Positions 59,194 to 64,000 of a stretch of 64,000 nucleotides of DNA are shown here, piece by piece. Below the pieces are notes generated by a model, which saw nothing but the letters and a program-made list of their open reading frames with translations, had not been told where the DNA came from and did not search any database. The position numbers and the translations under genes were made by a program. The stretch is taken from NCBI RefSeq assembly GCF_014201715.1, contig NZ_JACHFD010000008.1:62001-126000 (forward strand), in the 5' to 3' direction. Within the stretch, counting starts at the first letter, position 1, and each line of letters starts with the position of its first letter. The DNA comes from Haloferula luteola (GTDB taxonomy: Bacteria > Verrucomicrobiota > Verrucomicrobiia > Verrucomicrobiales > Akkermansiaceae).

Positions 59194-59217
59194 GCCACGG
59201 AACTTGGATTCCGTGGC
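59194..59217 (-). repeat. Hairpin element, left copy of an inverted pair
   Basis: Arms 59194-59202 (GCCACGGAA) and 59209-59217 (TTCCGTGGC) with a 6-nt loop. The inner 22 bp are the exact reverse complement of 60698-60719. The element is followed by TTTTTT on the minus strand (59193-59188 region), so it can also act as a terminator for leftward transcription. Confidence 0.85.
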
Positions 59218-59252
59218 GAGAAACTGGCCAAAGCTGGTCAAGAGTAAGATCT

Positions 59253-59288
59253 TTCGTCAAGGTGAAAATTTTGCGTTCACGTGACGAA
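59253..59288. repeat. Imperfect palindrome
   Basis: Outer arms TTCGTCA/TGACGAA (59253-59259, 59282-59288) and inner GTGAA/TTCAC are separated by single unpaired bases. A stem with bulges of this kind is seen in recombination sites folded as single strands, but also by chance. Confidence 0.45.
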
Positions 59289-59358
59289 TGCCTGCAAATC
59301 CTTGGGGTTGAGCGAAAAGTTCAAAAAGTTCGCATCGGATTTGAAAGTCGCGAATGGG

Positions 59359-59385
59359 CCTACGAAGTCGTTTTGACTTCGTGGG
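59359..59385. repeat. Stem-loop with 11-bp arms
   Basis: Arms 59359-59369 (CCTACGAAGTC) and 59375-59385 (GACTTCGTGGG) pair fully with one T-G pair around a GTTTT loop. It may be a REP-like dispersed element. Confidence 0.6.
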
Positions 59386-59632
59386 ACGTCACCAGGAGGC
59401 GCCATGGCTGATAGGGGCCGCCGCCTTCACCTCGGCGGACCCGAAGAATACGGTCCAGACAGGGTCGATGGGCGGTACCCCGCTCTCATTTCGGGCACCG
59501 GAGAGAACTCAGCCGTTCTCGATCCGGGAGGGATCTGGCAAGCTCCGCTGGGGAAGCGATCGCGATCGATCGTCTCCCATCGAGGAGAAGTCGAGGCGCG
59601 CGGCGGGTAGCCGTGGGGAACTTTTGGGGAGA

Positions 59633-59660
59633 AGGCCAGGCGGTCAGTGCCGCCCGGCCT
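59633..59660. terminator. GC-rich stem-loop after the recombinase gene
   Basis: Arms 59633-59643 and 59650-59660 pair at 10 of 11 positions. It lies 28 bp beyond the recombinase stop codon (59688), on the side where a terminator would be expected, but lacks a T-run. Confidence 0.4.
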
Positions 59661-59687
59661 GGAAATTGAAAACTCGGTCGAGTTCTC

Positions 59688-60632
59688 TCAAAGGGAGTCA
59701 AAAGGGCTCTTTACCGAGAGCAAATGGGTCGGCGAAACGTGGGTGTAGACCATGGTGGTGGCGATGCTTCGATGCCCGAGGAGTTCTTGAATAGTGCGAA
59801 CATCGGTGCCCGCCTCGAGATGGTGGGTGGCGAAGGAATGTCGCAAGCTATGGCTGGCCACTCCACTGGCGAGACCTAGGTCACGAATGACTTCCCCAAT
59901 CGCATGCTGAAAAGTGGCCTTGTGCCGATGGGGATGGAGTTCGTTTTTCCGGCGACGCCCCGGGAAAAGCCAAAAATCGGACATCCGCTTGGAGCCATCG
60001 GCGCGCACGCCCACCCAATCGTCCTGATGGACGAGGTCGCTCCATTCCGCTTGGGCACGGGCGGCCGTCGCGCGCAGATCTTTGAGGATCCGGTGAGCCA
60101 AGGGGAGATTGCGGCTTCTACGTCCCTTGGCCTTGCGAACGTAAAGAATGCCCTTTTCCAAATCAAAGTCCTCAAGACGCAAGGACACGGCCTCGCTGAT
60201 CCGGAGCCCGCAGCCGTAAAGCAGCCCCGCAATCAACCGGTACTCGCAGTCAAGGGAATCGAGGATGCGACTGATTTCGTTCTGACTGCAGATCCGCGGA
60301 AGGCGCATTGGCTGACGCCGAAGGTTGACTCCCCAATCGGGTTTGGGGCGATCGAGGAAGCGGCACAGCAATTCGAGCGCGGCTCGCCCTTGGATCTGAC
60401 TGGAGGGTGAGAGCTTCCGAGTCAGGGCGTAATCTTGAAGGAAATCCTTCTCGCCCCCCTGCTTTCCGGAGTGGCCGGAGGCACGAAAGCGGTCGATCCA
60501 GAGGAAGTAGGTTCGAATGGTCTCATCACCGTATCCTGCGGCTCGGGCATAGGAGCGGAAGGCCTTAGTGAATCGATCGGAGTGAAGGGACGGCGCATGT
60601 GTTTCATCGGTTAGACAGGATCCATGATACAT
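59688..60632 (-). CDS. Tyrosine recombinase (integron-integrase-like)
   Basis: A 314-residue phage-integrase family recombinase. The catalytic set is complete: R144 in YGCGLRISEAVSL, the Lys region VRKAKGRRSRNLPL, H261 and R264 in HSLRHSFATHH, H287 in LLGHRSIATT and nucleophile Y296 in MVYTHV. An N-terminal SAM-like domain binds DNA. Residues about 195-235 (WSDLVHQDDWVGVR...FWLFPGRRRKNE...PHRHKATFQHA) resemble the extra region that separates integron integrases from XerC/D, though shorter. Two inverted copies of a 22-bp hairpin sit 470 bp after its stop and 66 bp before its start. Confidence 0.88.
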   Translation of the reverse strand: MYHGSCLTDETHAPSLHSDRFTKAFRSYARAAGYGDETIRTYFLWIDRFRASGHSGKQGGEKDFLQDYALTRKLSPSSQIQGRAALELLCRFLDRPKPDWGVNLRRQPMRLPRICSQNEISRILDSLDCEYRLIAGLLYGCGLRISEAVSLRLEDFDLEKGILYVRKAKGRRSRNLPLAHRILKDLRATAARAQAEWSDLVHQDDWVGVRADGSKRMSDFWLFPGRRRKNELHPHRHKATFQHAIGEVIRDLGLASGVASHSLRHSFATHHLEAGTDVRTIQELLGHRSIATTMVYTHVSPTHLLSVKSPFDSL

Positions 60633-60696
60633 CTTTTTTGGGACGGTTGGAGTTCGGGTGCATGGGTGAGTGGGGGGCGGGTTGGAGATAGATCAA

Positions 60697-60720
60697 ACCA
60701 CGGAATCCAAGTTCCGTGGT
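60697..60720 (+). repeat. Hairpin element, right copy of an inverted pair
   Basis: Arms 60697-60705 (ACCACGGAA) and 60712-60720 (TTCCGTGGT) with a 6-nt loop. Core 60698-60719 is the exact reverse complement of 59195-59216. The similarity stops at the edges of the hairpin. Confidence 0.85.
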
Positions 60721-61085: not shown

Positions 61086-61159
61086 TCGGCTGGCAGGCGC
61101 ACTTCTGCACTCTGGGTAGGGGTACCCGGAGGATTGGGGCGTGCTCACCTGCCAGCCGA
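61086..61159 (+). ncRNA. Candidate structured RNA element
   Basis: Arms 61086-61097 and 61148-61159 pair perfectly over 12 bp (TCGGCTGGCAGG with CCTGCCAGCCGA) around a 50-nt loop that contains a smaller GGGTAGGGGTACCC stem. GTTTTC follows on the plus strand. Together with the hairpin at 61054-61078 it could be the end of a small RNA or a leader structure for the gene at 61441. I recognise no known RNA family. Confidence 0.35.
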
Positions 61160-61440: not shown

Positions 61441-62205
61441 ATGAAAACACGCAGCATCAAGCTGAGTTTGCTCGCGATCACCGCCCTCACCGGCGGGGCT
61501 CTCGGGCAAACAACCACCTGGTTCTACGGATCCGGGAACAACTCCGCAAACTACTCGGTGACCGCGGACAACTACTCCAGTCTCGGCAGTGGCTGGCAGG
61601 ATGGGTGGGCTTCCCAGCTCACGGGTACGACCGGCTACGATACCGTGTCGATTCAGACCAATGCTCCCCAAATGTTCGGCACTCAACAGGCTGGAATCCT
61701 GTATGGTTTCGATGGAACCGGTCTGAACTCAGCGCAGGTCTCCACCGCGATGCTCTATCTTCGCCAGGACTACTCGTCGACGAGTCAAACGTGGACCATC
61801 TATGGTTTGGCCACAGGGAATACGGGTTGGGATAGCTCGAACATGACCTGGGCCGATCTGGATACATCTTCCGCGACCGATTGGACAGGGGATACCCTGG
61901 TGGGCTCTTTGGGGAGCACCTACGGGACCTTTAGCACGACGGGATTGGATGTGGATACGAATATCAGTGTGGATATCACGGATGCGTTCAAGGCCTACCT
62001 CGATGGCTCCATTTCAGGCATCGCCTTCATGCAGAATGCGAATGGCACGACCCTGAATGGTGGAGATCGACGGCTCATCGTTTTCAGTGATGAAAACCTC
62101 ACGTCCTCCAATCTCCCCGGCCTCCTCGTGACCCAAGTTCCCGAGCCCTCAACGGCGATTCTTGGCCTCCTGGGATCCCTCGCCCTGCTGCGCCGCCGTC
62201 GTTGA
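61441..62205 (+). CDS. DNRLRE-like PEP-CTERM protein
   Basis: A 254-residue exported protein with signal peptide SLLAITALTGGALGQ. The body fits a DNRLRE-type beta-sandwich: AGILYGFDGTGLNSAQVSTAMLYLRQDY, WTIYGLATGNTGWDSSNMTWADLD, VDTNISVDITDAFKAYLDG. The tail VPEPSTAILGLLGSLALLRRRR is a PEP-CTERM signal. DNRLRE domains are surface modules often tied to polysaccharide binding or adhesion. It is 51 bp upstream of the fibre-like gene on the same strand, so they may be co-transcribed. Confidence 0.85.
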   Translation: MKTRSIKLSLLAITALTGGALGQTTTWFYGSGNNSANYSVTADNYSSLGSGWQDGWASQLTGTTGYDTVSIQTNAPQMFGTQQAGILYGFDGTGLNSAQVSTAMLYLRQDYSSTSQTWTIYGLATGNTGWDSSNMTWADLDTSSATDWTGDTLVGSLGSTYGTFSTTGLDVDTNISVDITDAFKAYLDGSISGIAFMQNANGTTLNGGDRRLIVFSDENLTSSNLPGLLVTQVPEPSTAILGLLGSLALLRRRR

Positions 62206-62256: not shown

Positions 62257-64000
62257 ATGAACTCAAAGTCCAACCTCATGGGTACCGCCTTCCGATCGGC
62301 GGTCCTGATGTCCGCTCTTACCGGGATTTCCCACGCTCAAGCCGTCGCTGGCAGTGCTGGAGTCGATATGGGAGATACGGGCAATATCTACAATGCGCCC
62401 TACATCAACTACCCGTCACTCTATCCAGGTAGCCTCGACTGGTCTTCGCCAAGTCTGCAGGGATTTATCGTTCCTGCCGCCCAATTGACGGGGATTGACA
62501 CCTCGGGGAATGATATCAGCTACCTCGATCTCCTGCCGCTGCAATCGCAGTCCATGACGGTTGTGGACTCGACAGGTCCTGTGATCGCGATGACTGCAGG
62601 TGCCAGCGCCGGAGACCCCGGTGTCATTCAGATTTACGATCCGGTGAGTGACTCGATGATTTCGGTGCTCTCCGTGGACAGTTCGGGCAATCCGACGGTG
62701 GGTGGTTCTCCAGTGGTGACCAGCGCGAATGCGAGCACCTTGGGGGTTTCTCAATGGACGGATGCAGGAACTTACATCCACCCCAAAGACAATGACGCCA
62801 CCACGGGTTTTGCTGTCGATAAAACTTCAGGATTCGCCAGAATCGGAAGTGGGGGTAGCATTACGGATCATGCTCTGTCGGTAGCGAGAAGTAGCGACGA
62901 TCAGAATGCAAAATATGCGATTTATGCAGCAAATATATCTTCTGCTTCTTCCAATCAAAATACGACGAATGTCGGCGTTTATGCACGCCAACGTGTGAGT
63001 ATTGCGAGTGGAACTTCGAACTCCGGTTCTGGTATTTCGGTATTGGGTCTTGCCGAGATGGGTGGTGCTGGTACGATGAATGTTCTCAACGCCATCTATG
63101 GCGGAGTGGGAGCGCGATCTGCTGCGGAAACTGGGACGGTAAGTCTGGTTCGAGGTGTCTACGCAAATCCTGGGGTCGCAACGGGGCATAATGTGAAGTT
63201 CAGCTCAATCATTGGCGTTCAATCCACTCCAAGCAACTATGGTAGTCAAACGACCAGTACGATGTATGGGGGTTCGTTTGCTGTGCAGAGTTCTGGAACT
63301 CTATCCGGGGCAGTGACGACCGCGACAGGTTTGACAGTGTCAGTCGGTAATTCAAATTTCCCGAATCAAATCTCCACGGGCTACGCGATCAATGTTGGTC
63401 CGGTAGTTGCACAGGACTCATACGGTATCTATCAGACCTCGTACAATAATCAGAACTACTTGAATAGCCGCGTTGGAATAGGGGGGGTGGCTCCAGCTAT
63501 TTCTCAAGCCTATGTCTATAATTCTGGTTCGGAGTCATCGGTGGGTGTCGCAAGCGGTTCTTCAGCGCAGTGGGGTGTATACACCTTGGTGAATCCGAAC
63601 GTGAGTTTGTTGGCTGCGGCTTCCGCAGGCGCTAGAAATACCGGTGGTGCGTTCACTGCTAACTATCTGAATGAGACGGGAAGTCTCTCGACGCAAGTCG
63701 GCTCGGCCTCCTATGCAGGTACGCTATATACGGCGAATGCAGCAACGGTGAATGAAGTTACGGCTCTTTCCGGGATTGTTTACTCTCAGCAAGGGACCAT
63801 TGGGACGGCATATGGCTTGTATTTGGGTGCAAGTAGTGCGGTAACCGTTGGTGGAGTGACTTACTCTGGAACGATCACCAATAATTTTGGTGTATATCAA
63901 AGCGTTTCCGCACAGACCAACTACCTCGCGGGGAATATTGGTCTTGGGGTGATCGCTCCGACCACCCGTCTTGATCTTAATGGTCGAATGACCATTCGCC
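62257..64000 (+). CDS. Large exported fibre-like repeat protein, 3' end cut by window edge
   Basis: At least 581 residues and still open at 64000. A signal peptide (AVLMSALTGISHAQA) is followed by a Gly/Ser/Thr/Asn-rich beta-strand protein. Segments such as YLNSRVGIGGVAPAISQAYV and YLAGNIGLGVIAPTTRLDLNGRMTIR resemble the VGIGTTxPxxKLxVNG repeats that precede the chaperone (peptidase S74) end of tail fibres and adhesins. G+C falls inside the gene: 23 of 60 bases at 62881-62940 are G or C, against well over half in the flanks. It may be a surface adhesin or fibre acquired by transfer. The start ATG at 62257 begins the signal sequence. Confidence 0.8.
   Translation, partial: MNSKSNLMGTAFRSAVLMSALTGISHAQAVAGSAGVDMGDTGNIYNAPYINYPSLYPGSLDWSSPSLQGFIVPAAQLTGIDTSGNDISYLDLLPLQSQSMTVVDSTGPVIAMTAGASAGDPGVIQIYDPVSDSMISVLSVDSSGNPTVGGSPVVTSANASTLGVSQWTDAGTYIHPKDNDATTGFAVDKTSGFARIGSGGSITDHALSVARSSDDQNAKYAIYAANISSASSNQNTTNVGVYARQRVSIASGTSNSGSGISVLGLAEMGGAGTMNVLNAIYGGVGARSAAETGTVSLVRGVYANPGVATGHNVKFSSIIGVQSTPSNYGSQTTSTMYGGSFAVQSSGTLSGAVTTATGLTVSVGNSNFPNQISTGYAINVGPVVAQDSYGIYQTSYNNQNYLNSRVGIGGVAPAISQAYVYNSGSESSVGVASGSSAQWGVYTLVNPNVSLLAAASAGARNTGGAFTANYLNETGSLSTQVGSASYAGTLYTANAATVNEVTALSGIVYSQQGTIGTAYGLYLGASSAVTVGGVTYSGTITNNFGVYQSVSAQTNYLAGNIGLGVIAPTTRLDLNGRMTIR

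Follow-up and report, generated by a model that had tools for sequence, protein, structure and literature searches.

The locus and its two 22-bp sites

The window analyzed here is a 64,000-nt stretch of the Haloferula luteola genome (GCF_014201715.1, contig NZ_JACHFD010000008.1, positions 62,001–126,000 of the forward strand), and all coordinates below refer to it unless another contig is named. It contains a gene for a tyrosine recombinase of 314 residues (59688–60632, minus strand), which lies in a 1.5-kb unit bracketed by two copies of one 22-bp sequence. Comparison across the window places CCACGGAACTTGGATTCCGTGG at 59195–59216 and its 100% reverse-complementary copy at 60698–60719, and the identity between the copies stops exactly at 22 bp. 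Each copy is a hairpin in which an 8-bp stem common to both is extended by one further pair and encloses a 6-nt non-palindromic loop, giving 9-bp stems at 59194–59217 on the left (outer pair G-C) and at 60697–60720 on the right (outer pair A-T), with a loop that reads CTTGGA or TCCAAG depending on the strand. A sequence-only reading of this DNA had described exact reverse-complementary 22-bp arms, a hairpin with a non-symmetric loop in each, and one intact recombinase in the unit between them, and all of this is confirmed.

Read from the outside inward, four of the four half-sites are CCACGGAA, followed by the 6-bp center CTTGGA or TCCAAG. The left site (59195–59216, plus strand) is thus CCACGGAA-CTTGGA-TTCCGTGG, a candidate core recombination site whose hairpin also resembles a terminator of minus-strand transcription. 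The right site (60698–60719, minus strand) is the exact reverse complement of the left one, a candidate core site that lies ~65 bp upstream of the recombinase start and has a U-tract on neither strand. Hence, each site consists of inverted arms of 8–9 bp around an asymmetric 6-bp spacer, and the two spacers are identical but in opposite orientation. Inverted arms around an asymmetric spacer are the standard form of a tyrosine-recombinase core site, as in dif (11-6-11) and loxP (13-8-13). It should be noted that the arms, being palindromic, carry no orientation of their own, so that only the six loop bases define the two sites as inverted. Template switching during replication can flip the loop of a perfect stem-loop, and the inverted relation is therefore weaker evidence than it looks.

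The inverted pair is beyond chance. When the 1.5-kb flanks of the recombinase are compared, their best inverted match has a length of 22, whereas 500 shuffles yielded no match above 15. Among 1,561 intervals of equal size sampled across 1.59 Mb of this genome, this value is the highest; a tandem-repeat array came second (20), followed by a match of 16. In the 4.9-Mb genome the 22-mer occurs at two positions only, those of the flanking pair, when up to three mismatches are allowed, and the stem with any loop of 3–9 nt is found at the same two positions and at no others. The 22-mer was not found in 194 other genomes of the family (≤2 mismatches), nor was the site found in IMG/VR. A widespread repeat or REP-type element was rejected on these counts, and the broad occurrence of the element as a terminator without a recombinase, which the sequence-only reading had set against its own proposal, was not seen in the searched genome and 194 relatives. 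The top-ranked inverted match, together with its absence elsewhere in the genomes searched, argues for a shared origin of the two copies and against a terminator in wide use.

Another type of repeat was noted on contig C2 of the same genome (G000), where positions 82604–84507 and 94779–95729 hold arrays of ~155-bp units, each with the palindrome AGCCGACATGTCGGCT. All 15 copies of this palindrome in the sampled 1.59 Mb lie within these two clusters, the first of which (82604–84507) also carries a second palindrome, GCGCCGACACGTCGGCGC. The C2 arrays are apparently a non-coding tandem repeat.

The remainder of the bracketed segment is largely a 471-bp interval (59217–59687) that runs from the recombinase stop to the left site. 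It has no supported gene, its open reading frames scoring poorly for codon usage and matching nothing in Pfam. A strong hairpin immediately follows the recombinase stop, and the interval also contains a hairpin at 59362–59382 (ACGAAGTC..GACTTCGT), a third perfect one (ACGAAGTCGTTTTGACTTCGT) that lies inside the bracketed segment. On the other side of the gene, a 65-bp leader (60633–60697, minus strand) separates the recombinase start from the right site and would travel with the segment on inversion. No promoter cassette was recognizable in the segment and no credible match to known RNA families was obtained. The first gene outside the right site, ~720 bp beyond it, encodes a PEP-CTERM surface protein with a DNRLRE domain (61441–62205, plus strand). 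Between the two, at 61086–61159, is a strong imperfect hairpin of ~74 nt (TCGGCTGGCAGG...CCTGCCAGCCGA; approximately −55 kcal/mol with flanks), next to which GAGTTTTCTCC follows on the plus strand. A long, repetitive, secreted-looking protein is encoded at 62257–63999 and continues past the end of the window; it has no Pfam or NCBIfam match and its codon usage is unlike that of its neighbors.

The recombinase

The recombinase has the complete RKHRHY catalytic set (R144, K169, H261, R264, H287, and Y296), and Pfam assigns it to the phage-integrase type, with a SAM-like domain at the N terminus. Its best NCBIfam model is that of the integron integrases (TIGR02249), with a score of 196.9 bits that is below the cut-off of 265. 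Integron integrases (IntI1, IntI2, and IntI4) are nearest to it in sequence and in fold, IntI4 (PDB 2a3v) being the nearest solved structure by both measures, and they have the C-terminal SP.D motif in common with it. In a tree whose IntI-like rows were picked by their similarity to the recombinase, it groups with IntI and apart from Xer with a support of 100/100, on a very long branch. The AlphaFold model, predicted from 14 sequences, is of moderate quality (pLDDT 75) with low confidence exactly in the shortened domain described below, and it only confirms an IntI/Xer fold. The codon usage of the gene is like that of the neighboring housekeeping genes, and the gene therefore looks maintained. 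A separate Xer pair is encoded elsewhere in the genome.

What sets the enzyme apart from integron integrases is the deletion of most of their additional domain (ALER..K, W.W, and DPRSGxxRRHH). The aligned full-length IntI-like rows keep this domain near patch III (LPxALxRKYPxAxxxWxWxFPS..DPRSGxxRRHH), in a few cases in a degraded form, whereas the recombinase has WVGVRADGSKRMSDFWLFPGRRRKNELHPHRHK near patch III and is ~15 residues shorter there. Specifically, alignment with the IntI-like rows shows a patch III region without the ALER, K (K219), DPRSG, and RRHH elements. Integron integrases are defined in part by the additional domain, which integron recombination requires (PMC9229058, PMC9668308). 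A further difference is that no attC array was found with the enzyme: a crude finder of limited sensitivity, which did detect attC pairs in two homologous loci (L013 and L016), gave no attC-like site in the 64-kb window. Since most of the additional domain is absent and no attC was found, the recombinase probably does not act on folded attC sites.

The genome encodes a second IntI-like protein (contig C5, 87806–88474; L032), in which the additional domain is degraded and the C-terminal motif is altered (RHAYCSDL, TTMGYAR), and which also lies on a long branch. Across the order (289 genomes), IntI-type integrases with a full additional domain are common, many of them in open reading frames of 430–540 codons.

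No enzyme more than ~40% identical over most of the length was found by a pattern scan of 84,980 genomes, in which the few matches above ~40% identity were short fragments, nor was one found in the 289 genomes of the order or in 387 genomes of the phylum. None of 51 other recombinase loci has a comparable inverted flanking pair (the longest is 13 bp, with some of the flanks being short). Hence, the pairing of this enzyme with these sites is without comparative backing, as neither the repeats in 51 loci nor an enzyme above ~40% identity could be found, and the locus itself was not found in the other genomes searched. A viral origin was considered and rejected, with neither a relative nor the site in IMG/VR and with phage and plasmid matches that are distant IntI-type enzymes.

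Alternative functions of the paired hairpins

The hairpins could be terminators or insulators of the recombinase gene, the left one ending minus-strand transcripts and the right one blocking read-through, with the shared sequence resulting from a local duplication. The left copy fits this well, in that on the minus strand it has a stem of 9–10 bp and a loop of 4–6 nt followed by TTTTTT and resembles the other terminators of the genome. Of the terminator-like sites in the region it is the best, in effect a textbook intrinsic terminator. In addition, the 3′ side on the minus strand is T-rich at both copies (U6 and U3), and the ninth stem position holds different bases in the two copies yet is paired in each (G-C and A-T); although this has a chance of ~1 in 16, it slightly favors a structural role or selection for the hairpin. 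However, ~470 nt separate the recombinase stop from the left copy, whereas 17 of 30 U-tract hairpins sampled in the genome follow a stop by 9–53 nt, and another strong hairpin already lies directly after the stop of the recombinase. The right copy lacks a U-tract on either strand, the hairpin sequence is reused nowhere else in the genome, and terminators leave the identical, oppositely oriented loops unexplained. We therefore retain the terminator alternative raised by the sequence-only reading for the left copy, at its distance of 470 nt from the gene, and not for the right copy; as an account of the pair we consider it rather doubtful. The left site may combine terminator and recombination functions.

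Alternatively, the hairpins could be the terminal inverted repeats of a mobile element, compact at 1.5 kb and equipped with its own tyrosine recombinase, as the sequence-only reading had also suggested. Exact repeats do flank a unit with a single gene, 16 congeners lack the unit and its recombinase in the equivalent gene context, and the outer flanks have an imperfect A-rich stretch in common (TCGAAAAAAG and TCAAAAAGAAG). These stretches are not an exact target duplication, however, and the element is single-copy in the genome, with a host-like codon usage, no relative in IMG/VR, and plasmid and phage matches that are only distant IntI-type enzymes. Moreover, tyrosine-recombinase elements normally use a single attachment site for integration and have no need of terminal inverted repeats. 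No empty site is seen in the 16 congeners, in which homology ends before the left site; because of this the insertion point cannot be aligned to demonstrate either an empty site or an exact target duplication. In many of these congeners a sigma factor/FecR/PSD1-type operon, so named from sequence, lies beyond the conserved hydrolase and small gene. Thus, with no second copy, clean target-site duplication, or empty site, the compact mobile unit is unsupported and we regard it as improbable.

A decayed chromosomal integron, in which a relative of IntI has lost its attC array and two hairpins are fortuitously kept, would account for the IntI clade membership and for the failure to find attC nearby, but is very unlikely given that the recombinase gene is intact with all catalytic residues and that the hairpins match each other exactly and have no attC RYYYAAC/GTTRRRY boxes.

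Proposed mechanism of a putative invertible unit

We propose instead that the locus is a self-contained site-specific recombination unit that putatively inverts its own 1.5 kb, a reading to which we give an even chance on the sequence data and which we prefer mainly because of the core-site anatomy and the literature precedents for inverted sites and for an enclosed recombinase. In this mechanism, each 22–24-bp hairpin would serve as a double-stranded core site with two recombinase-binding arms (CCACGGAA, read inward) and an asymmetric 6-bp crossover spacer, and identical inverted sites would bracket the gene of the very recombinase that acts on them. The IntI-clade enzyme would bind both sites and synapse them, and strand exchange within the 6-bp spacers would then invert the 1.5 kb. 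That the recombinase acts on the two sites, and that the outcome is inversion, is what we infer from this arrangement. The invertible switch put forward by the sequence-only reading thus stands in its parts, namely the dyad anatomy, the inverted identical spacers, and the catalytically intact recombinase, with inversion itself as the step deduced from them.

In the present orientation, the recombinase transcript would run into the left hairpin and then U6. Inversion would turn the recombinase toward the PEP-CTERM gene at 61441, and its transcript would exit past the right hairpin. The left junction retains U6 in either orientation because U6 lies outside the left crossover. The right virtual junction has no U-tract, and therefore rightward transcripts would meet no U-tract terminator at that site. 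It is a matter of speculation that the PEP-CTERM gene at 61441 is the target of such control.

Precedents exist for both aspects of the proposed unit. Inversion between inversely oriented dif-type sites has been reported, and the 8/9-6-8/9 arrangement with identical 6-bp spacers matches this (PMC13141974). In the dif modules of Acinetobacter plasmids (pdif sites; PMC13141974), genes are likewise bracketed by inverse sites of the form arm, 6-bp spacer, arm. In contrast to the pdif modules, which rely on the host Xer pair, the unit is chromosomal and carries its recombinase inside, and its arms are 8–9 bp and perfectly symmetric. Indeed, CCACGGAA and TTCCGTGG are unlike the 11-bp XerC/XerD arms of those sites (PMC13141974), so that the unit does not qualify as a dif module. 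A search of the genome for the canonical dif pattern (≤2 mismatches) gave no match and is uninformative.

A further parallel is provided by invertons such as the RecV/Cdi switches and the putative invertible 844-bp segment of Providencia stuartii, which encloses a recombinase ORF and has inverted repeats of 14 bp (PMC5903667). These likewise have short inverted repeats, a recombinase at or inside the segment, and an adjoining surface-protein gene. Two features by which invertons are recognized, inverted repeats with identical spacers that bracket a segment and a recombinase in or next to it, are present here. The unit differs from invertons in that its arms are longer and perfectly palindromic, its enzyme belongs to the IntI clade, it has no recognizable promoter cassette, and it is known here in one orientation.

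The fullest form of our hypothesis, which we put forward tentatively and consider rather unlikely as a whole, is that the recombinase descends from an integron integrase, has lost the additional domain that reads hairpins, and has become specialized for two double-stranded core sites, forming a self-inverting switch beside a surface-protein gene. If the unit does invert, it would be a minimal inverton of one gene and two sites with an enzyme of the integron lineage. It would also be a test case for the dependence of IntI enzymes on the additional domain, which is mostly gone here with the catalytic core intact and candidate double-stranded sites present. In addition, it would provide a compact pair of site and recombinase whose sequence is unlike that of Cre/lox or Flp/FRT.
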